From: Chloroflexota bacterium
GTDB taxonomy: Bacteria; Chloroflexota; Limnocylindria; Limnocylindrales; CSP1-4
Reading direction: 5' to 3'
Length of the DNA: 25,888 nt
Assembly: GCA_021789355.1 (NCBI GenBank)
Contig: JAJYJR010000015.1
Span: 1 to 25,888, forward strand
In this document: positions 3,339-21,042 of the stretch, piece by piece
Layout of the letters: each line of letters starts with the position of its first letter
Numbering within the stretch: position 1 is the first letter of the stretch
Program-made: the position numbers and the translations under genes
Notes under the pieces: model-generated
Told to the model about the DNA's origin: nothing
Seen by the model: the letters and a program-made list of their open reading frames with translations, nothing else
Database searches by the model: none

Positions 3339-4574
3339 ATGAAACGCTTCTTCGCGGCCGTGACGGCCGCACTGCTGCTGGCCGGGCTGCTGTCCGGCGC
3401 CGCGCTCGCGTCCTCCAAGACCACCAACCTGTGGAGCGTCTGGAACATCAACGCGGGCGGCGCCGCGTACGTACCGACGAATGCCCCCGCGACGGCCACG
3501 AGTCTCGCCAACTTCACCTTCCCCGAGTCGCCCACCACGGCGCTCCTCACCACCTCCCAGACGCCGAGCCTGCTCGGGGACCTGACCGGCAAGACGATCA
3601 CGGCCACCTTCACGATCACGGCCTCGCAAGAAGCCGCCTTCACCTACTCCGGTGCAGGTTCGTCAGGCGATTGCGGCACCCCGGCGTCCGTGCGTCTGTA
3701 CTTCGAGGCCAACACGAACGGCAAGTTCACCTACGACACGGCGGGCTACTCGAAGTACTGGTGGTCCCACGCCGTGGCTTCCACGAACGTGGATGCCTAC
3801 ACGCTGGCGGGCGGCACCTTCACCCTCACCGTGCCGCTGGACGTCAACGACTGGTCCGACTGGGGCGGGGAGCCCGCCAACAGCATCCCGACGTACTTTG
3901 CCAACGCGGTCGCCAACGTGGACGGCATCGGCCTCTCCTTCGGGGGCGGCTGCTTCTACGCCAACGGCGTGGGCCTGTCGGCAGGCAGCGCGTCGTTCAC
4001 GCTGACGTCGTATTCGCTGCTGTCGTTCGACGTGAACTACTTCACGGTTAGCGGCGATGCCACGTACAACACCGGCGGCGGGTTCTGCCGGTCGGCCGCG
4101 CCACGCACCTCGGTGCCGCTGGCTGGCGGTGGCACGGCCTCTCAGGCCGTGACCAGCAGCGGTGCGGTGACCCTGACCACCACGGGCGTCACCACGTACG
4201 CCGACAACGGGTTCTACGTGGCGGTCGGCACGCTCGGCGCGTTGGCAGCGAGCGGGTACACCGTCACGGCCAGCGGCACGCCCGTCGCGACCAACGTCTA
4301 CTTCGACACCGGCGGCGACGGCAGCTTCTTCGCGTGGGACGCCAACGGTTGTCTCACCGGCCTGAACGGCGACACCTACGCGAGCATGGGTTCGCTGACG
4401 GTCACCGGCACGACGTCCATGTATGTGCTGGGCGGCCTCGACGCTGGCACCAGCACCTACACGCTCTCGCAGCTCGCGAGTGGGACCGTCCCCGGGTTTT
4501 CCAGCACCACTCCGGTGGCAGTCTGGGTCGGCTTCGTCGGCAACGGCAGCGCGACGATCACCGCCGCCCCGTAG
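3339..4574 (+). CDS. Secreted protein of unknown function, 411 aa
   Basis: The ATG at 3339 has GAGGT 5 nt upstream and starts a classical signal peptide: MKRFF, a hydrophobic core, and an ALASS cleavage region near residue 24. The mature part is Thr-, Ser-, Ala- and Gly-rich, predicted mostly beta, with a few Cys (SSGDCGTP, GGCFYANG, GGGFCRS, ANGCLTG) that could form disulfides. I recognise no catalytic motif, no PKD repeat and no membrane anchor, so I assign only secretion. It is divergent from the PKD/Ig surface-protein gene and of similar composition, so both may belong to one exported or cell-surface module. It is followed by a strong GC hairpin at 4630-4658. Confidence 0.85.
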   Translation: MKRFFAAVTAALLLAGLLSGAALASSKTTNLWSVWNINAGGAAYVPTNAPATATSLANFTFPESPTTALLTTSQTPSLLGDLTGKTITATFTITASQEAAFTYSGAGSSGDCGTPASVRLYFEANTNGKFTYDTAGYSKYWWSHAVASTNVDAYTLAGGTFTLTVPLDVNDWSDWGGEPANSIPTYFANAVANVDGIGLSFGGGCFYANGVGLSAGSASFTLTSYSLLSFDVNYFTVSGDATYNTGGGFCRSAAPRTSVPLAGGGTASQAVTSSGAVTLTTTGVTTYADNGFYVAVGTLGALAASGYTVTASGTPVATNVYFDTGGDGSFFAWDANGCLTGLNGDTYASMGSLTVTGTTSMYVLGGLDAGTSTYTLSQLASGTVPGFSSTTPVAVWVGFVGNGSATITAAP

Positions 4575-4629
4575 GGCCACAAGGGCGGCGTGGGCAACGC
4601 CCTACGCGCCCACTCAGGGAGCGAACAGG

Positions 4630-4658
4630 AACCGGGGCCTCCCCACGGGGCCCCGGTT
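4630..4658 (+). terminator. GC-rich hairpin terminator after the secreted-protein gene
   Basis: A perfect 10-bp inverted repeat, AACCGGGGCC (4630-4639) and GGCCCCGGTT (4649-4658), with a 9-nt loop, lies 56 nt after the stop at 4574. There is no T run, so termination would rely on the stem or on Rho. Confidence 0.6.
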
Positions 4659-4809
4659 CGTCAGGTGGCGCCGAGGGCCCCCCGTTCGCATTCGCCGCAT
4701 CGTCAGGTTGACCGTCGTGAGATCGAGGCCCCGCTGCGTGCAGTCCTGCCGACGCTGTCAGACTCGGCCGACCCGTCGACTTGACGTCTCGCGTACTCGG
4801 GCCGCGATC

Positions 4810-4838
4810 CTGACTGCTGACGATCCCTCCCGTACAAA
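4810..4838 (+). promoter_or_regulatory. Sigma70-like promoter for riboswitch A
   Basis: A -35-like CTGACT (4810-4815), a 17-nt spacer and a -10-like TACAAA (4833-4838) place the predicted transcription start near 4845. That is two bases before the first paired base of the riboswitch. The hexamers match consensus only partly (4 of 6 each), but the position relative to the RNA supports the call. Confidence 0.55.
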
Positions 4839-4846
4839 TGAGGTGT

Positions 4847-4940
4847 CCATCACGAGCGCGCGAGAGCCCCGGCTCGATGACCGCGCAGCAACCGGTCGGT
4901 CCCCCTCAGGCCGACGCGGTGCTCCGGCCGGGTTCGATGG
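4847..4940 (+). ncRNA. SAM riboswitch (SAM-I/IV type), copy A
   Basis: P1 pairs CCATC (4847-4851) with GATGG (4936-4940). The P2 element carries the diagnostic GAGCCCCGGCTC hairpin and the downstream GATGACC and GCAGCAACC core. P3 pairs GTCGG (4895-4899) with CCGAC (4911-4915), and the core closes with GGTGCTCC. The order and conserved core match the SAM-I / SAM-IV superfamily as I know it. A second copy at 8253-8346 has the same 94-nt length and a 42-nt identical core, while P1 and P3 differ by paired, compensating changes. The downstream ORF lacks a clear ribosome-binding site, so whether it controls translation or transcription is unclear. Confidence 0.75.
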
Positions 4941-5212
4941 GATCGGATGTCGCCCCCAGAGCTTCTCCCGCCGCCGCGGGGTCTCGCGGCTCGGCGTGTC
5001 GACTCCGCCTGTCAGAGAGACTGGACAATGACGGGCTGCCCGTCCTCGACGTTTATGCTGCCCTGCGCATGGAGCGGGTGGAGCTGACCGCGCATCTAAC
5101 GCTCGCCGATCCTGCGGCCGAGATCCGGGCCACCGAGCGCACTGACGTCGCGGCAGTGGCCGCCTTCTGGGCCGCCTGTGTGAGCCAAGTCCCCGGAGCA
5201 CGTCAGGGATGA
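4937..5212 (+). CDS. Small unknown protein downstream of riboswitch A (start uncertain)
   Basis: The open frame has plausible coding character in its second half, with third positions mostly G or C and a product such as VYAALRMERVELTAHLTLADP. The first in-frame start after the riboswitch core is ATG 4937, which sits inside the 3' strand of P1 and has no Shine-Dalgarno. ATG 5069 is an alternative, giving about 47 aa. No family is recognised. It ends 42 nt before the OLD-family nuclease gene, so the two could be co-transcribed from the riboswitch promoter. It may be a decayed remnant; the reading frame itself is not certain. Confidence 0.35.
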   Translation: MGSDVAPRASPAAAGSRGSACRLRLSERLDNDGLPVLDVYAALRMERVELTAHLTLADPAAEIRATERTDVAAVAAFWAACVSQVPGARQG

Positions 5213-5242
5213 GTCACCGGTAAGAGGCTGCGGTCGGCGCCC

Positions 5243-5248
5243 TACACT
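5243..5248 (+). promoter_or_regulatory. -10 box (TACACT) for probable leaderless start of the OLD nuclease gene
   Basis: TACACT ends 6 nt before the ATG at 5255, the spacing expected if transcription starts at the A of ATG. The gene has no Shine-Dalgarno, which fits leaderless translation. No good -35 hexamer is visible. Confidence 0.4.
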
Positions 5249-5254
5249 GCCCCT

Positions 5255-7270
5255 ATGCGTCTGGAACGGTTGATCCTGCATCGCTTCCGCTGCTTCTACG
5301 ACGCGGAACTGACGTTCGGGCAGGCGACCCTCCTGATCGGGCCCAACAACGCTGGCAAGTCCACCCTCATCGACGCGATCCGCTGCCTGTACCTCGACAA
5401 GGACGGTCTCGGACGTTCCTTTACCTACGCCACATCCGCAGCCCGGGTCGGAGACGGGACGCCGCGCACAGCGGGCAGCGTCTCCACACCGAAGGCCGAG
5501 GAGATGCCGTTCGTCGTGGGGGAGTACGGCGACCTCAACCCGCACGAACGCGAGGTCTGGGAACCCTACATGGACGGCGAGCGGCTGCGCTTCGGTACGC
5601 TGTTCACCGGACCTGACGGGGGTGCAGAGCGCTGCCTCGTGATGGGCGCGAACTCGGTGATGGGTCGCGCGTGGAGCGGGGTCGAGACTGTGGATGCCGC
5701 CGACTCCGGCAAAGACCGCGACATCGTCGAGGCATTCCATCGTACCGGCTTGGCGCGCCGCGACCGGCACGGCGTGTGGGTCCGCTGGCAGGTCCTCGGC
5801 GGGCTGCTCTCGGCGCTCTATCGACTTGAAGGAGAGGACGACCTCTCACTGTCGCCACTGCGCGACTTTCCCGATCCCGGATGGATCGTCGCCGTCCCGG
5901 GTCCGGAAGCCCCCCAACCGTCGGCCGCAGACCTGCTGCGTCCGCTGATTCAAGGCCGGGCGCTCTCATACCTTGAGGATGAGCCGGAGAGCCTGTCGGA
6001 GCTCGACGAAGATGGCGTGCCCCGCGCGACATTCAGTGCAGGCGGTTTCGGCGAGTATCTGCGACATCTGCCGAAGGCGGTCGACTACGCGGTCGAGGAC
6101 GTCGAGTCCCGGTTCGATGCCTCACTGCGGCGGTACCTCGGGCAGGGCGCCAGCCTTGGAGCAGAATTCCGGCGTCTGCTGACGGCAATGGGTCAGCGGT
6201 CCGGCTGGGACGTTGCTCGACGGGCGATCGATGCTCTGCTTGACGATCTTGACGTTCGCGTGGCAGAGCCGTTCGAGCCTTCGGAGGGAGTACCAGAATC
6301 GCCGGGCGAGCCGCTTGAGCGGCTCGGCGCGGGGGCTCAGCGAGCCGCAGCACTCGCCGTCCTCGACCTGTATGGCGATCCAGACCTTGTCAGTCTTCAA
6401 CGCTCGGTCCTCCTCCTTGTTGAGGAGCCCGAGGTCGGGCTGCATCCGAGTCTGCAGCGCCGTGTGGCGCAGCAGCTGATCAGTCTGCCGACCTTCGGAG
6501 TGCAGACGATCGTCGTCTCCCACGCCCCGCTCTTTGTAGACGCCGTGCCGCCCGATGGCATCCGCCTCGTCCGGCCCCGCACCGAAGAACTACACCTACC
6601 GGATGGTCGCACGGCGCGCGTTCGGAACCACGCCATTTCGGTGCCATCCGACCTGACCGAGGTGGCCGCGTTGGTGGGCGCCTCCCCAGCGGATGTCCTG
6701 CTCGCCAGCCAGTTCGTGGTTGTCGAAGGCGCCTCGGATGCCGCGATCCTGAAGACGTGGGCCGAGCGCTTTGGCTTGCGGCCTGACCTGCAGGGGATCC
6801 GCTTCTACCCCGCGGGAGGCTCGGCGCTCACGGTGCAGGTGGCCCGGCTGCTTGACCTCGTCTATCGCGACGCGGCGGTGTTCGTGGTCATGGACAACGG
6901 GCACGACACCGAGAAGCAGCGCCTCGAACTTGTCCAGCGGTTCGGCGGACGGGTGGATGCACGCCTGCTGAGCGTCAATGAGATCGAGGGGTTCTTCATG
7001 CCCGCCGCCGTCCAGCGCTGGCTCGTCAGCAACGGTGCCAGCGACGCTGACCTAGCGGCCGCTGCCGAGCTGCTCGAACGCGACCCCAACCGCAAGCGCG
7101 CGCTGCGGACCATCTCCGAGAAGGTGCTGAGCCGCGACTACCGGGTCGTCGAGGATGGCGTGGCCATCGCGCGGCACATGAGCGAGGGCGATGTGCCGTC
7201 CGACGTCGCGGCACTGTTCATGAGCCTGTCCCATCCGAGGCGTCAGGGGACCACCGCGTCGGCGCCCTGA
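5255..7270 (+). CDS. OLD-family ATPase-TOPRIM nuclease (overcoming-lysogenization-defect type)
   Basis: This 671-aa protein has an N-terminal ABC/SMC-type ATPase with Walker A GPNNAGKST (29-37). A signature and Walker B segment follows at about residues 386-397 (LLVEEPEVGLHP), then an H-loop VVSHAP near 420. The C-terminal part is a TOPRIM domain, with VVVEGASD near 488 supplying the catalytic Glu, VMDNGHD (D547, D551) the acidic cluster, and NEIEGFF typical of OLD proteins. OLD nucleases are ATP-controlled DNA nucleases with roles in anti-phage defence. No UvrD-like GajB partner lies downstream, so it is not a canonical Gabija pair. It begins 42 nt after the riboswitch-A ORF but may also have its own leaderless promoter. 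Confidence 0.9.
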   Translation: MRLERLILHRFRCFYDAELTFGQATLLIGPNNAGKSTLIDAIRCLYLDKDGLGRSFTYATSAARVGDGTPRTAGSVSTPKAEEMPFVVGEYGDLNPHEREVWEPYMDGERLRFGTLFTGPDGGAERCLVMGANSVMGRAWSGVETVDAADSGKDRDIVEAFHRTGLARRDRHGVWVRWQVLGGLLSALYRLEGEDDLSLSPLRDFPDPGWIVAVPGPEAPQPSAADLLRPLIQGRALSYLEDEPESLSELDEDGVPRATFSAGGFGEYLRHLPKAVDYAVEDVESRFDASLRRYLGQGASLGAEFRRLLTAMGQRSGWDVARRAIDALLDDLDVRVAEPFEPSEGVPESPGEPLERLGAGAQRAAALAVLDLYGDPDLVSLQRSVLLLVEEPEVGLHPSLQRRVAQQLISLPTFGVQTIVVSHAPLFVDAVPPDGIRLVRPRTEELHLPDGRTARVRNHAISVPSDLTEVAALVGASPADVLLASQFVVVEGASDAAILKTWAERFGLRPDLQGIRFYPAGGSALTVQVARLLDLVYRDAAVFVVMDNGHDTEKQRLELVQRFGGRVDARLLSVNEIEGFFMPAAVQRWLVSNGASDADLAAAAELLERDPNRKRALRTISEKVLSRDYRVVEDGVAIARHMSEGDVPSDVAALFMSLSHPRRQGTTASAP

Positions 7271-7412
7271 TCCGAACCGCGTGCCGGAACTGGCCTACAC
7301 CCGGTTCATCGAGGCGAAGTTCCCGAGAGCGGGCCGCGTGTCGGAGGCCAACCTCGGACCTGACGGTTTCGCGCTGGTGCAGGCGCGGCTCACCTGACAG
7401 GCAGAGGTCGGT

Positions 7413-7547
7413 TCAGTCCTGTTCGCGCCAATCTCCGTCACCGGGGCGCTCGAACGTCACGAAACCATGGTCCACGCCGAGCCACTGAGCCCACTGCGTG
7501 GGTCGCCGGGCATGGGCCTCCAGCCGCAGTTCTCTCGCCACCACCAT
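7413..7547 (-). CDS. Small unknown protein, 44 aa
   Basis: The frame encodes a protein-like sequence starting MVVARELRLEAHARRPTQWA and ending at TGA 7413-7415. CGGAGG directly abuts the ATG at 7547, so initiation may instead use the in-frame GTG at 7541 (GGAGG with 6-nt spacing), giving 42 aa. It lies 29 nt downstream of the QxK nuclease-like gene on the same strand, an operon-like arrangement. Such a partner could be an accessory or immunity factor, but no family is recognised. Confidence 0.45.
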   Translation of the reverse strand: MVVARELRLEAHARRPTQWAQWLGVDHGFVTFERPGDGDWREQD

Positions 7548-7576
7548 CCTCCGACCACCAACTCCGGGGCCCCCAT

Positions 7577-8071
7577 TCAGGCATGCTCAGCTGGCGAGGC
7601 TTCGGGCTCGGCCTGCAGGTAGTCCCAGCGGTCGCGGTACCGCTCCAGCCAGCCGTCCGGGTATCCCGGCACCTCGGATCCGTGCCGCCGCCTGAGCGAG
7701 CGCACCGGGTTGTCCTTACCGCCTCTGGCGAGGAAGGCCCGGTGCGAGGCGGCAAGGAAGTCGGCCACCACCGTGGAGGGCACGATGTACACCTCCGGGC
7801 TGGTGGGCACGAGATCGACGAAGGCGTAGAAGAGCCGGGGGTGGACGAACTCCGGCAGTTCGTTCTTGTCCCCGAGGACCCAGTTACCCGCCCGCGTGGT
7901 GGTCTTGACCTGCACCATCGAGCCCATGCTCATCTTGGGATCGAACACGACCAGATCCGCGATGGGCGCGCCGGTCGGCGCGGGCGCGGCGAGCAGGTCC
8001 CGCCTCAGCAACTGGTACAGGATGTAGGTCTCGCCTGCGGCCCCGATGAGGACCGATCCCTTGGCTGGCAT
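7577..8071 (-). CDS. PD-(D/E)XK-superfamily nuclease-like protein (QxK variant), 164 aa
   Basis: The ATG at 8071 was chosen over the longer open frame because GGAGA lies 7 nt upstream and the conserved fold starts there; the longer version would read through non-protein-like Arg/Pro-rich sequence. The pattern fits the restriction-endonuclease-like core: helix Glu (E14 in GAAGETYILYQLL), a strand Asp (D39 in IADLVVFD) and Q54-V-K56 (MVQVKTTT). QxK replaces ExK in several families of the superfamily, so a nuclease or a resolvase-like DNA-binding role is likely but unproven. It is divergent from riboswitch B and shares its 180-bp upstream region. The 44-aa ORF follows 29 nt downstream. Confidence 0.7.
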   Translation of the reverse strand: MPAKGSVLIGAAGETYILYQLLRRDLLAAPAPTGAPIADLVVFDPKMSMGSMVQVKTTTRAGNWVLGDKNELPEFVHPRLFYAFVDLVPTSPEVYIVPSTVVADFLAASHRAFLARGGKDNPVRSLRRRHGSEVPGYPDGWLERYRDRWDYLQAEPEASPAEHA

Positions 8072-8221
8072 CGAACCGTCTCCGCGCGCTGGAAGTGGAC
8101 GCTCGAAGCGTAGGCCAAGGAGGGATAGCCAAGTGCGCGGAGGGACGGCCGAAGCGACACGTCCCGGACCGCGAACCGGAGCCGGGCGCCGCGGCCGCCG
8201 GGCCGCTGCGCAGGGGCGGCG

Positions 8222-8227
8222 TATCCT
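8222..8227 (+). promoter_or_regulatory. Possible -10 box upstream of riboswitch B
   Basis: TATCCT lies about 26 nt before the start of riboswitch B and would place transcription initiation near 8234. No matching -35 hexamer is visible in this GC-rich stretch. Confidence 0.3.
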
Positions 8228-8252
8228 CGTCCCGGCATCCGCGTGATGCCGC

Positions 8253-8346
8253 CTATCCAGAGCGCGCGAGAGCCCCGGCTCGATGACCGCGCAGCAACCG
8301 GCGATCGCCCTCAGGATCGTCACGGTGCTCCCGCCGGGTTCGATAG
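8253..8346 (+). ncRNA. SAM riboswitch (SAM-I/IV type), copy B
   Basis: P1 pairs CTATC (8253-8257) with GATAG (8342-8346). The core 8260-8301 is identical to 4854-4895 of copy A, including the AGCCCCGGCT hairpin and GCAGCAACC. P3 pairs CGATC (8302-8306) with GATCG (8315-8319), and GGTGCTCC closes the core. The P3 loop contains CCCTC (8308-8312), complementary to GAGGG (8353-8357) directly before the ATG at 8358. SAM-IV-type RNAs form such a P3-loop/3'-tail pseudoknot. The AGGAGA Shine-Dalgarno overlaps the 3' strand of P1. Both features predict that SAM binding hides the ribosome-binding region of the next gene. Confidence 0.8.
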
Positions 8347-8357
8347 GAGACCGAGGG

Positions 8358-8669
8358 ATGGCCACCTGTCAGGACGGCTGGCACGTCGTGGAGAGCGGCG
8401 GCCAGCGAGTCTGCGTGCGCCCGCTGGGACGCCTCCGGGATGCGCCCGGGACCTGCGTCTACCGTATCGGCCCGGTGCCTGACGACCTGCAGTGCCGCAC
8501 CATCTGGTGCTACGCCGACGGGGGTGTGCCGTGGACGTGTGTCGCCTGCGGCGGGTCCATCGACGTCCCGGAGGACCGGGCGCGCCTGCCCGAACCGGTG
8601 TTCGCGGCCCTGCCCGGGGACCGGGACAGCCTCCCCGAGCAGGGCCGAGTCGAGGCGGTGGTCGCCTAG
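8358..8669 (+). CDS. Cys-rich small protein under riboswitch B, 103 aa
   Basis: The ATG at 8358 lies 11 nt after the end of riboswitch P1 and has AGGAGA 7 nt upstream. The product has seven Cys (4, 19, 33, 46, 51, 61, 64), including CVAC (61-64), suggesting a zinc-binding knuckle or a metal-binding fold. It has no signal peptide or membrane segment, and I recognise no family. It stands alone: the next gene is on the opposite strand, so it appears to be the sole target of the riboswitch. SAM riboswitches normally control methionine or SAM biosynthesis and transport; nothing here shows such a function. Confidence 0.65.
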   Translation: MATCQDGWHVVESGGQRVCVRPLGRLRDAPGTCVYRIGPVPDDLQCRTIWCYADGGVPWTCVACGGSIDVPEDRARLPEPVFAALPGDRDSLPEQGRVEAVVA

Positions 8670-8750
8670 CCGCGCAGCTGTTCCATGCCCTCTGGGACGC
8701 AAGGCGGTCAGGCGGATGACACGAGCGGTCGCGCGCGCCGGGGCCTGACA

Positions 8751-9761
8751 TCAGGCGCCGGGACCGTAGGCCTGCCACTCAGCCGGGCCGCCCCGCATCA
8801 CGAGGCCGCCCCCCGGCCGCTGGCGCTCCTCAGGCATCAGCGTGAACTGGATGGCCTGAAGGTCGGCTCTGCTCTGCCCGAACACGAACCGACGTGCCTT
8901 CGACCACTGGCGATAGTGGTACGGCCACGACGGAAGCCAGATGCGAACGCCGGGGATGCTCTCCTCTTCCCAGACGTACCCGTCGGGCACGTTGTGACCC
9001 ATCACAAGCATGGTCTCGGAGTTCAGGGGGACAGAGACCTCGGCATCGTGGGTCGCGAAACCGACCCCGAGGAACTCCGGGTGGTTCCTCGCAGGCCATA
9101 CAGTCACGGGATCGTCTCCGACGATGTAGTGCGGGAAGGTCGATCTCTTCAGCAACCACCATCCCGTGGCCGTGATGTACGGCGTGACCGCCCGCATCAT
9201 ATCCACCACCGTGCCGAGCGTTGACTCCTCGGGTGCCCGAACAGCGAACTTCTTCGCACGAAGGCCCTCCAGCAGCTCAATCCGGGCCGCCTCCAGTTCC
9301 TCGTCGGTCCCGTCCATCCCTGCGGCGCGCGCTCGCTCCGCGAAACCCTCGGAGCGGGAAAGGTTCATGTCGAGCATCACCGACGCGCCAAACTCCAGCA
9401 TCTCCCGGGCGGCGAGACGGTGCGAGGGGACGCGGCCGTACAGGAGCGCAAGGTACGTGGCCAGCGCCATGCGTGATGCAACGTCCACGGCGAACCGAGG
9501 GCCGGTCTCGTCGCATAGGTCGCGCATAACCGGTGCCGCTGCTCCCTCAATCCTCGCGAACAACTTCTCCAGCGCGTCATCCGGACCCTGCTCTGTAGTG
9601 ATCGTGTAGTAGTTGCCGATGACAGCTGTGTCCTTGATCTGCCGCATGAATATCTCGTCGGAGTGCTTGTCGTAGACCCAGATGCGGGCACCATCCAGCC
9701 CCGCGCCGAACAGGCGCTGGTGGAACTGAGGAAGATAGTGGTGCCGCCTAGACCGCGGCAT
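8751..9761 (-). CDS. DUF4238 domain protein, 336 aa
   Basis: The N-terminus RRHHYLPQFHQRLFG (from residue 5) matches the HHYxPxFxLRxF hallmark of the DUF4238 family. The length and later segments, such as the IVGDDPVTVWP stretch and the PLNSETMLVMG motif (a typical PLxxxxxL turn), also fit. The molecular function of the family is not established. Members occur widely in variable genomic regions and near defence genes. No Shine-Dalgarno is evident before the ATG at 9761; the HHY motif begins at residue 7, so this start is likely right. The gene is convergent with the Cys-rich protein gene and has no obvious operon partner. Confidence 0.85.
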   Translation of the reverse strand: MPRSRRHHYLPQFHQRLFGAGLDGARIWVYDKHSDEIFMRQIKDTAVIGNYYTITTEQGPDDALEKLFARIEGAAAPVMRDLCDETGPRFAVDVASRMALATYLALLYGRVPSHRLAAREMLEFGASVMLDMNLSRSEGFAERARAAGMDGTDEELEAARIELLEGLRAKKFAVRAPEESTLGTVVDMMRAVTPYITATGWWLLKRSTFPHYIVGDDPVTVWPARNHPEFLGVGFATHDAEVSVPLNSETMLVMGHNVPDGYVWEEESIPGVRIWLPSWPYHYRQWSKARRFVFGQSRADLQAIQFTLMPEERQRPGGGLVMRGGPAEWQAYGPGA

Positions 9762-11898: not shown

Positions 11899-11925
11899 CC
11901 GTCGAGGATCGTGAAGGAGGTCAAC

Positions 11926-12852
11926 GTGACGTCGTACTACCGCGTCATGCTGGGCGCAGGGAGCGTGTACGCGAAGCAGTGCTTCGCCGGGGGCTTCATC
12001 GGTGCCGACTTCGAGATCAGGCAGGACCTGTCCCCTGACATATCCGATGAGTGGAAGGAATTCAACAAGAAGTACATCCCGATCTGGTTGGAGTCGCATC
12101 CGGGCAAGTCGAAGATCGCCGCCGGTCTCTCGTGCGGGTTCCTCTGGACCATCGCCACGGGCATCCAGAAGGGGGACAAGGTCCTCTCCCCAGACGGATC
12201 AGGTGCTTACCGTGTCGGGGAGGTGATCGGCGACTACTACCACATGGACGAGGGCTTCCTGCCGCACCGGCGGGCGGTGCACTGGCTCGATCAGTCGATC
12301 GACAAGGCTGACCTGAGCGCAGCCCTGAAGGGTTCGGCGGGCTCCATTGGCACGATCGCCAACGTGACGCAGCACGCGGAGGAGATCCAGTTGCTGCTGT
12401 CAGGAAGCACGCCGCCGCCGTTGGTCCCCGTCGATCAGGGGGTGGAGGACCCGGCGACCTTCGTGCTGGAGAAGCACCTCGAAGACTTCCTCGTCCAGAA
12501 CTGGGCACAGACCGAACTCGGCAAGACATTCGCGATCTTCGAGGAGGACGGGGAGAAGGTCGGCCAGCAGTATCAGACCGACACCGGACCGATCGACTTG
12601 CTCGCGGTGAGCAAGGACAAGAAGGAGCTGCTCGTCGTTGACTTGAAGAAGGGGCGGGCCAGCGACGCTGGTGTCGGGCAGCTGCTGCGGTACATGGGGT
12701 ACCTGCGCGAGGTGCTGGCGACGGAGCACCAGACGGTGAAGGGCGTGATCGTCGCGCAGGAGGATGACCTGCGGCTGAGGCGCGCGGTGTCCGTAGTCCC
12801 GAATGTCAACTTCTATCGGTACGCCGTGAGCTTCAAGCTCTTCAAGGCCTGA
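11926..12852 (+). CDS. EVE/PUA-like plus NucS-like (PD-(D/E)XK) endonuclease, 308 aa
   Basis: The GTG at 11926 is preceded by AAGGAGGT with 4-nt spacing; the earlier GTG at 11911 overlaps that site and is rejected. The N-terminal part (about 65-120) carries GDKVLSPDGSGAYRVGEVIGDYY and LPHRRAVHW. These resemble the PUA/EVE-like reader domains found in restriction enzymes that sense modified bases. A linker leads to a NucS/DUF91-like nuclease core: EKHLEDFLVQNW (182-193), D224 in GPIDLLA, D239-L-K241 in VVDLKKG, and QLLRYMGYL (252-260). Family knowledge suggests a modification-dependent restriction endonuclease; the specificity is unknown. The HEPN-like gene starts 24 nt downstream. Confidence 0.8.
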   Translation: MTSYYRVMLGAGSVYAKQCFAGGFIGADFEIRQDLSPDISDEWKEFNKKYIPIWLESHPGKSKIAAGLSCGFLWTIATGIQKGDKVLSPDGSGAYRVGEVIGDYYHMDEGFLPHRRAVHWLDQSIDKADLSAALKGSAGSIGTIANVTQHAEEIQLLLSGSTPPPLVPVDQGVEDPATFVLEKHLEDFLVQNWAQTELGKTFAIFEEDGEKVGQQYQTDTGPIDLLAVSKDKKELLVVDLKKGRASDAGVGQLLRYMGYLREVLATEHQTVKGVIVAQEDDLRLRRAVSVVPNVNFYRYAVSFKLFKA

Positions 12853-12876: not shown

Positions 12877-13491
12877 ATGGCGTCTCCCTCAGGTCACGCC
12901 GCGGATGTGCGTGCGGCGAGAGACATCGGTCGTCTCCTCGCGGCGCGCCGTCATGCCGCAACAGTCAGGTTCGGTCTTCGGCTCGATGACCTTCTCCAGT
13001 TGATTGAGGCGCACCATGCCGTCGGCGGTCGCGAAGCGGGTAGGCGGCGACGCACCGACGCGCTGAACCGCGCCGCGCTGATCGTGCTCACCGATTGCTT
13101 CGAGGGCTTCGTACTCGACCTGTTTCAAGGGCGCTGGGCGACGCTGTACCCGAGTTCCGATCCAGCGCCGCTGCTCAGGCGCATGCACTTCAACAACCCG
13201 TGGCCAGACGACATCGACAGTCTCTTCGCGCTCGTCGGGATCGTGGATATCACGAAGAAGGCTGAGGGGCGGCCGACTGCCTCCTCGGCCGCACCCAGTC
13301 GGACGGCGTCCGAGCCGATGTTCGTCCGTGAACGCGGGAGCCACCAGATCCGGCAGGTAGTGGCGGAGATGATCGCTCTTCGCAACGTCGCCGTCCATGT
13401 CGGCGCGGCTGCAAAAGCCCGGTTGAGCGACGTCACGGCGTATCTGAACGAGGTCAGGTATCTCGCTGTCGAAATGAGTGGGCGACTCTGA
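12877..13491 (+). CDS. HEPN-superfamily RNase-like protein, 204 aa
   Basis: The ATG at 12877 has AGGGGTGA a few bases upstream. The protein is mostly helical. It carries the HEPN hallmark RNVAVH (R169, N170, H174) in MIALRNVAVHVG, plus an N-terminal helix with ALIVLTDCFEGFVLDLF. The layout resembles RiboL-PSP-HEPN and MAE_28990/MAE_18760-type HEPN proteins. The R-x4-H motif is the catalytic site of many HEPN RNases used in abortive infection and toxin-antitoxin systems. It follows the EVE-NucS-like nuclease by 24 nt and precedes a type I restriction system, so a defence role is likely. No MNT antitoxin partner is visible. Confidence 0.75.
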   Translation: MASPSGHAADVRAARDIGRLLAARRHAATVRFGLRLDDLLQLIEAHHAVGGREAGRRRRTDALNRAALIVLTDCFEGFVLDLFQGRWATLYPSSDPAPLLRRMHFNNPWPDDIDSLFALVGIVDITKKAEGRPTASSAAPSRTASEPMFVRERGSHQIRQVVAEMIALRNVAVHVGAAAKARLSDVTAYLNEVRYLAVEMSGRL

Positions 13492-20289: not shown

Positions 20290-20586
20290 ATGAGCACGAA
20301 GACCGTCCGCTTCACAGACAAGGGCATCGCGTCCATTCCCAACGACAAGCCAGTGGTCTACAAGATCGAGACGGAGTCGGGCAGGAACAACTACACCGGG
20401 ATTGCGCAGCGCGGGCGGGTGCAGGACCGCCTTCGGGAGCACCTGCCGGGCGCCCGCGATCCGGTGCCGGGCGCCAAGGTGCACATCGAGCAGATGCCGA
20501 GCATCGACGAGGCGCGCGCCAAGGAGGCACGGATCCTCCGCCGCTCCTCGCCACCGCACAACAAGCAGGGCACTGGCAACCGGTAG
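20290..20586 (+). CDS. GIY-YIG nuclease-like small protein, 98 aa
   Basis: The ATG at 20290 follows GGAGG with 4-nt spacing. The sequence fits a minimal GIY-YIG fold: VYKI (23-26) in place of GIY and YTG (35-37) in place of YIG. The conserved Arg region is RVQDRLREH (43-51), the acidic helix is EARAKEARI (metal-binding Glu near 79), and Asn is at 91 in PPHNKQ. Such single-domain proteins may cut DNA or have lost activity; the divergent first motif leaves that open. It is convergent with a second GIY-YIG-like gene, with a 39-bp gap between the stops. Confidence 0.75.
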   Translation: MSTKTVRFTDKGIASIPNDKPVVYKIETESGRNNYTGIAQRGRVQDRLREHLPGARDPVPGAKVHIEQMPSIDEARAKEARILRRSSPPHNKQGTGNR

Positions 20587-20625: not shown

Positions 20626-21042
20626 TCAGCCACCGGCGTTCAAGATCTGCCCCATGCCGCCCGAGCGGGCCTGCGCGAGCGCCTCCTCCTCGGCCAACAC
20701 GCGGTGCGACTTGCGTCGGAGGTCGAGCGCCTCATGTTCGGACCCGAGCGTGAGCCCCGCTCGGCCGCAGATCTCCAGCGTGACGGACCCGCCTGCGGCG
20801 AGGTGGGAACGCATGCGCCCGTTCAGCCGCACGTTCGTGCGCTGCGACGGTCCGGGATTGCGGTAGCGGCCGAAGCGGCGTGGCAGGTCGTCGGTCTCGC
20901 CGACGTACACGGATGCGCCCTCGTCCAACAGACGGAACCGGTAGAGTCCCGGTCCCGACGGCAGCGCCGGGAACACCAGCCGCCCGTCTCGGTCGAGATT
21001 CACGGTCCCCAGCAGGACCCACTGGTCGAGCACGATCTCCAT
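20626..21042 (-). CDS. GIY-YIG nuclease-like protein, 138 aa
   Basis: The ATG at 21042 starts the conserved frame; longer versions run into the YccF-family gene. GLY (32-34) and YVG (46-48) form the two signature strands. Arg55/56 (DDLPRRFGRY) is in place of the catalytic Arg, and SEHEALDLRRK (from 101) carries the acidic helix. The family includes homing nucleases and repair enzymes such as UvrC. An N-terminal extension of about 28 residues (from MEIVLDQWVLLG) precedes the GIY motif. It is convergent with the 98-aa GIY-YIG protein, an unusual pairing, and lies 17 nt from the stop of the YccF-family gene upstream on the same strand, suggesting one transcript. Confidence 0.8.
   Translation of the reverse strand: MEIVLDQWVLLGTVNLDRDGRLVFPALPSGPGLYRFRLLDEGASVYVGETDDLPRRFGRYRNPGPSQRTNVRLNGRMRSHLAAGGSVTLEICGRAGLTLGSEHEALDLRRKSHRVLAEEEALAQARSGGMGQILNAGG

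Follow-up and report, generated by a model that had tools for sequence, protein, structure and literature searches.

A variant S-adenosylmethionine-clan riboswitch overlaps the ribosome-binding site of a gene from an unnamed protein family

The DNA analyzed here, a stretch of 25,888 bases with 68% G+C (hereafter the window), carries two RNA elements of the S-adenosylmethionine (SAM) riboswitch clan, referred to as copy 1 and copy 2. Copy 2 lies on the ribosome-binding site (RBS) of a gene for a protein of 103 amino acids (aa) that belongs to an unnamed family, and this pair of RNA and gene is the main subject of this report. The features that make up the pair, together with copy 1, are the following:

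8250-8349, + strand: SAM-clan riboswitch copy 2; RF00162, 52.9 bits, E 1.5e-10, above the gathering score of 44.4
8250-8257 with 8342-8349, + strand: helix P1 of copy 2, containing a G-A mismatch
8275-8278, + strand: CCGG, the loop-2 strand of pseudoknot PK-1, complementary to CCGG at 8334-8337; identical letters in copy 1
8308-8312, + strand: CCCUC in the P3 loop, with a 5-bp complement at 8353-8357; candidate anti-RBS strand, PK-2-like
8345-8349, + strand: Shine-Dalgarno sequence AGGAG with a spacing of 8 nt to the ATG; AGG, its leading triplet, belongs to the 3' strand of P1
8353-8357, + strand: GAGGG, abutting the ATG at 8358; candidate partner of the P3 loop
8358-8669, + strand: gene for the 103-aa protein of the unnamed family, with C4, H9, C61, and C64 invariant in 27 aligned rows
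4844-4943, + strand: SAM-clan riboswitch copy 1; RF00162, 40.2 bits, below the gathering score of 44.4; E 7e-7

Both E values come from a covariance-model search (cmscan) of 3.8 kb, in which RF00162 was the sole family listed for either RNA and in which SAM-IV (RF00634) and SAM-I/IV (RF01725) gave no row up to E 1. An earlier sequence-only reading of this DNA had proposed two SAM-type aptamers that share an identical 42-nt core and differ by paired changes in P1 and P3. Both RNAs indeed match RF00162 and keep the SAM-contact nucleotides, the identical core is exactly 42 bases long (alignment columns 11-52), and the paired changes are borne out, the register of P3 in that reading having been slightly shifted. 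Its appeal to covariance models held for copy 2, which passes the RF00162 cut-off, and failed for copy 1, which stays under it despite its low E value. All 12 compared pairs (the inner six of P1 and six of P3) remain paired in both copies. In P1, one pair has changed on both sides (C-G to U-A) and another on one side (U-G to C-G); in P3, two pairs have changed on both sides (U-A to G-U, G-C to A-U) and one on a single side (U-G to U-A). This gives three two-sided and two one-sided compensated changes. Of the outer two model positions of P1, the outermost is C-G in copy 2 and U-U in copy 1, and the other is G-A in each copy. Comparison of 4501-5300 with 8051-8750 by blastn gave a single significant match, 90% over 90 columns, which covers the riboswitch only; the remaining rows had E values of 0.068 or worse. 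The core pattern GCAACC-CCCTCA-GGTGC occurs at two places in the window, the two copies themselves, and at none in 100 shuffles. On sequence grounds, both RNAs are real SAM-clan riboswitches.

Thirteen SAM-contact positions have been listed (6-8, 11-12, 44-47, 57-59, and 87; PMC6890682). In both copies all 13 are SAM-type (AUC, GA, CAAC, UGC, A), the reference letters being those of the cmscan consensus and the position numbering having been transferred manually to the alignment. Spermidine-sensing variants of SAM-I exist, and in that class nucleotides that matter for SAM binding are altered in J1/2 and in the P3 internal loop (PMC10853860). No such change was found at the 13 contact positions of either copy, and because these positions are all SAM-type, unlike in the spermidine variants, SAM is the likely ligand of both RNAs.

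The position of P1 suggests how copy 2 may act. In the fold of the isolated aptamer, the AGG of the Shine-Dalgarno sequence is paired at a probability of at least 0.99. Since P1 covers the Shine-Dalgarno sequence, a P1 held closed by ligand should block translation, and copy 2 is probably a translational OFF switch. A SAM-I riboswitch that acts at the translational level and is OFF with SAM provides a precedent (PMC7270179). The proposal of the sequence-only reading that low SAM should turn the gene behind copy 2 on is supported. No promoter was found, in a scan that is uninformative for this lineage. An ATG within the riboswitch core (GATGAC) opens 25 codons (8283-8357, + strand) in frame with the 103-aa gene, as in the relative P0031 described below; as an alternative start of the gene it is possible but unlikely.

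The internal layout of copy 2 departs from the known classes. In the alignment, and as far as sequence tells, P2 of both copies has the kink-turn-like 3+6 internal loop of the SAM-I model. Between the PK-1 strand at 8334-8337 and P1 there is GUUC alone. The P3 loop reads CCCUCA in both copies although the stem below it differs, and the RF00162 consensus line shows no conservation at this loop. Residues R-G stand directly before the conserved start in six of the nine family rows that can be read at least two residues upstream (40 rows examined). A motif that abuts the ATG cannot serve as a Shine-Dalgarno sequence at that spacing, so that a pairing role for GAGGG is reasonable to infer, and the CCCUC of the P3 loop probably pairs with it as a candidate second pseudoknot. 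As a complement between loop and RBS region is not rare by chance, the case for this pseudoknot rests on conservation.

With SAM-I (S box, RF00162), copy 2 shares the ligand-contact nucleotides, P1, P2 with its 3+6 loop, PK-1, and P3; it differs by the missing P4, the candidate extra pseudoknot at the RBS, and a target that is not a known methionine or SAM gene. The marks given for SAM-I as opposed to SAM-IV are P4, no extra pseudoknot, the P2 kink-turn, and one uridine at position 121 of that numbering (PMC7270179). A P4 hairpin without a further pseudoknot is not what copy 2 shows, and because P4 is missing we call it a variant rather than an orthodox SAM-I riboswitch. SAM-IV (RF00634) resembles copy 2 in having no P4 and a P3 loop that is able to pair 3' of P1, as in PK-2 (PMC6890682). 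Copy 2, however, has a P2 internal loop of SAM-I size and no P5, there being 3 nt between P1 and GAGGG, so that of the SAM-IV hallmarks P5 and PK-2 it offers only a candidate PK-2-like complement. In SAM-I/IV (RF01725), a PK-2-type pseudoknot is said to be part of the switch, an account attributed to Trausch in 2014, and the candidate pseudoknot of copy 2 would be a likeness to that class. Unlike SAM-I/IV, which has an unbroken P2, no PK-1, and a P4, copy 2 has the P2 internal loop and the PK-1 complement and lacks P4 (PMC6890682, PMC2864571). The layout reads as a mosaic, SAM-I-like in its kink-turn and SAM-IV-like in its missing P4. The SAM-I riboswitch of Xanthomonas campestris (Xcc) shares the translation-level OFF control by SAM that is predicted for copy 2, but it has P4, a separate expression platform, and a met operon as its target, whereas copy 2 has the RBS inside P1 (PMC7270179).

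As to targets, a 2013 survey placed various Chloroflexi genes under SAM riboswitches and ascribed them to cysteine/methionine metabolism or transport (PMC3766115). Its regulons resemble the present case in that they include unassigned genes; the 103-aa protein is not named in the available part of the survey. By analogy, cysteine/methionine metabolism or transport would be the safer default for the target of copy 2. No report of this riboswitch together with its target was found in the open-licence literature; what is new here is the target protein family and the layout, the SAM-clan riboswitch itself being already known.

The sequence-only reading had described the gene behind copy 2 as encoding a lone Cys-rich protein, which agrees with the seven Cys residues and with the position of copy 2 on its RBS; the start has been corrected to 8358. 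Codon use of the gene is coding-like at +0.19 per codon (65-codon windows of known genes: in-frame 5th percentile +0.06 and median +0.33, out-of-frame 95th percentile +0.14). A protein search found six relatives and a profile search 41, which makes 42 rows with the window protein; one relative, P0037, is labelled Candidatus Limnocylindrales, and together with the high G+C of the window this label points to Chloroflexota. The family alignment comprises 27 rows, namely 26 of the 41 relatives plus the window protein; among the 15 relatives not aligned are truncated and altered sequences. Residues C4, H9, R25, T32, P41, W50, G56, W59, C61, and C64 are invariant in it, and the CX2C motif is present in 38 of the 42 family rows (missing in P0049, P0058, P0059, and P0060). 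The CX4H and CX2C motifs together suggest one zinc site. The 103-aa protein matched no family in Pfam, NCBIfam, PHROGs, or PADLOC, the 27 aligned members gave chance-level matches only (best E 0.029 in NCBIfam and 0.012 in PHROGs), and the structure model of the protein has no clear structural relative. Six relatives (P0029, P0034, P0035, P0037, P0043, and P0047) have a common C-terminal extension, roughly PFL..VDPE..L...TRRRHATLAMRAYYARLEH, that is missing in the window protein, and P0061 and P0062 are each extended at the C terminus by a domain of some 100 residues, similar in the two, that has no Pfam match.

A homologous leader precedes the gene in some of these relatives. Leaders were judged from protein readings upstream of the conserved start, with third codon positions left open, and four relatives have such a reading of at least 18 residues (P0031, P0032, P0059, and P0007). 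P0031 reads MTAQQPTDDPHVGTVLPPGAMGDRG before the conserved start, in the same frame and at the same length (25 aa) as the reading of the window through copy 2. Its nearest back-translation is 12 of 75 bases off copy 2, against 25 for the best of 5000 shuffles and a shuffle median of 39. Its residues allow all core strings tested (ATGAC, GCAACC, GGTGC, CCGG, CCCTC, and GAGGG) and all six inner P3 pairs, of which two must deviate from copy 2 at both bases. With codons chosen by the analyst, this leader folds into a hairpin of 10 pairs. P0032, 14 of 75 bases off copy 2 (best shuffle 23), fits P3, the CCCUC loop, GGTGC, and GAGGG, and P0059 fits from P3 onward, including CCCUC and GAGGG, one of its pairs being G-C at a place that can only be C-G in P0031 and P0032. 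P0007 was dropped as a carrier of a partial leader. The sequence-only reading stood to be refuted if this RNA did not recur upstream of related genes elsewhere; for the 103-aa family, as far as protein data allow, it survives, P0031 having a compatible leader over its visible part and P0032 and P0059 altered or partial ones. A tree of 40 family rows has little resolution, with stars on 5 of its 37 inner branches; the five leader-labelled rows, including the since-withdrawn P0007, do not cluster in it. Searches of nucleotide collections for related loci gave no confirmed match. Relatives' DNA was sought in genome contigs by pattern (0 matches) and by family alignment with one peptide pattern (one stretch matched, 0 confirmed); the family-alignment search of viral contigs matched 13, again with 0 confirmed. 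The riboswitch pattern was absent from viral contigs, where a looser pattern gave 14 loci, none of the 14 with a SAM family match. P0004 and 4800-5000 against plasmids and 8200-8700 against phages gave no match, and RF00162 was not found in the one Herpetosiphon plasmid searched (0/1).

These results are best explained, with a probability that we put at about 0.7, if copy 2 is a SAM-clan riboswitch that controls translation of the 103-aa protein, the protein is part of a response to SAM limitation, and copy 1 has lost its gene. When SAM is plentiful, the SAM-I-type core would fold and P1 would close over the Shine-Dalgarno AGGAG; the CCCUC of the P3 loop would probably pair with GAGGG before the start codon, and ribosomes would be blocked. 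When SAM or methionine is low, P1 and the loop pairing would open and the 103-aa protein would be made. The product would be a small, probably zinc-binding beta protein that serves as a lineage-specific part of the response to SAM or methionine limitation, most likely in Candidatus Limnocylindria (Chloroflexota), and copy 1 would be a duplicate of the RNA, bereft of both gene and RBS partner.

Several observations weigh against this explanation. P4 is absent in copy 2, 19 model positions being replaced by 3 bases in the cmscan alignment. Five pairs between loop and RBS region arise by chance in about 3-4% of trials (831 of 20,000 shuffled loops, 553 of 20,000 random 8-mers). In the minimum-energy fold of 8240-8400, which is ligand-free, P1 is not formed; this modelled fold fits the ligand-free state without being proof of it. 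The structure model of the protein, a small beta structure, has middling confidence (predicted local distance difference test score, 74.6), and the zinc assignment is drawn from the residues alone. Among the four relatives with long readings, one fits throughout, two fit partly, and one does not. The visible leader of P0031 is confined to the 75 bases from ATGAC onward, third codon positions open. The residues of P0032 do not allow the initial base of ATGAC or one of the two A's in GCAACC, so that its aptamer may be damaged; P0059 misfits at ATGAC and GCAACC, and P0007 fits at GAGGG alone. This sample of four is biased, since a gene caller that starts within the leader favors odd cases.

The sequence-only reading had attached copy 1 to a small open reading frame (ORF) and an OLD nuclease gene. 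Two features lie behind this RNA:

5015-5212, + strand: coding-like fragment in the frame of ORF 4937-5212, +0.23 per codon, without a start near copy 1
5255-7270, + strand: OLD-family ATPase/TOPRIM nuclease gene; PADLOC Old E 9e-30, AAA_15 64.5 bits, OLD-like_TOPRIM

The attachment is not supported: copy 1 scores below the cut-off, has no GAGGG partner within 47 bases (the best there being four pairs, CCCC/GGGG), and is followed by no coding-like ORF in its first 70 bases, and the OLD gene starts 311 bases past its end. ORF 4937-5212 begins inside P1 of copy 1, and its first 26 codons (4937-5014) are non-coding-like at -0.35 per codon, as is a 46-codon ORF at 4947 (-0.12 per codon). The fragment at 5015-5212 matches no Pfam or NCBIfam family, and no remnant of the 103-aa family was found after copy 1. 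The OLD gene itself has both an ABC-type ATPase and a TOPRIM match, the OLD-like_TOPRIM match lying at its cut-off of 23.2. As copy 1 has neither a GAGGG partner nor a credible start codon, it is probably an orphaned or decaying duplicate, and control of OLD by it is possible but unsupported.

Besides OLD, the defence-type genes in the window comprise HsdR, HsdS, and HsdM of a type I restriction system (8.6 kb separate the start of its methylase gene from the end of the 103-aa gene) and two further features:

11911-12852, + strand: strong match (476 bits) to PDC-S02, a candidate defence family of PADLOC; NucS-like domain at the C terminus
12877-13491: weak RiboL-PSP-HEPN match, below its cut-off, behind the PDC-S02 match

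Other explanations differ in whether the two RNAs work at all and in what they sense. We regard it as unlikely that copy 1 works as a switch for the transcript behind it, OLD included, through transcription attenuation or an unrecognised start codon. Its contact nucleotides are intact, OLD lies on the same strand, and the coding-like stretch from 5015 is downstream of it. Against this stand a simple consensus scan that found no terminator-like site on the + strand of 4560-8760, the missing GAGGG partner, and the missing coding-like ORF noted above. Somewhat less credible still is that neither copy functions at present, the two being remains of a duplicated leader in decay. This would account for the weak, gene-less copy 1, the altered look of the P0032 and P0059 leaders, and the misfit of P0007, but copy 2 scores above the cut-off, keeps its contact positions and a well-placed Shine-Dalgarno sequence, and compensation is seen in the differences between the copies as well as in those of P0031.

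A change of ligand, of the kind by which spermidine riboswitches arose from SAM-I, would explain the unusual target gene and the missing P4, and J1/2 position 10 is C in copy 1 in the alignment. Known spermidine-sensing variants, however, are altered in J1/2 and the P3 internal loop at SAM-binding nucleotides (PMC10853860), whereas both copies are SAM-type at 13 of 13 listed positions, and we give this possibility very little weight. Equally improbable in our view is the suggestion of the sequence-only reading that the riboswitches detect SAM depletion caused by SAM-degrading enzymes of phages and switch on OLD and the small protein. OLD, PDC-S02, the weak HEPN-like match, and the type I restriction system all lie in the window, and low SAM should switch the gene of copy 2 on. 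Yet nothing but their neighbourhood ties the riboswitches to these genes. PADLOC gave no match up to E 1 for the 103-aa protein or for three relatives, and copy 1 is under the Rfam cut-off, lacks a coding-like start, and lies 311 bases from OLD. The open-licence literature searched contained no proposal that riboswitches sense SAM depletion by phages, and homeostasis of methionine and SAM accounts for the same facts.

A wider claim goes beyond the explanation preferred above, translational control of the 103-aa gene by copy 2, and we advance it only tentatively, as doubtful. Copy 2 might represent a new SAM-clan architecture, with a P4-less SAM-I core, a P3 loop pairing with the RBS region, and aptamer and platform in one fold. 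It would serve a zinc-type protein family of Candidatus Limnocylindria, not seen before, whose task is to respond when SAM is depleted, perhaps also when phage enzymes deplete it. The link between a metabolite-sensing RNA and a nameless protein family gives a first handle on its function, as a protein wanted when SAM is low. The results also suggest a compact layout intermediate between SAM-I and SAM-IV, with the RBS covered by the aptamer, which bears on the evolution of the SAM clan.

Some further features of the window stand apart from this pair. The gene at 7580-8071 (- strand) encodes 164 aa, is divergent from copy 2, and has no family in Pfam, NCBIfam, or PADLOC. Two closely spaced small genes on opposite strands, 20290-20586 (+) and 20629-21027 (-), give weak, below-cut-off GIY-YIG matches. 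A riboswitch of the cyclic di-GMP class c-di-GMP-II-GAG (RF03169; 3102-3185, + strand; 76.4 bits, gathering score 40) lies about 150 bases before a secreted-looking protein that starts near 3339, so that the window holds three riboswitch aptamers of two classes.

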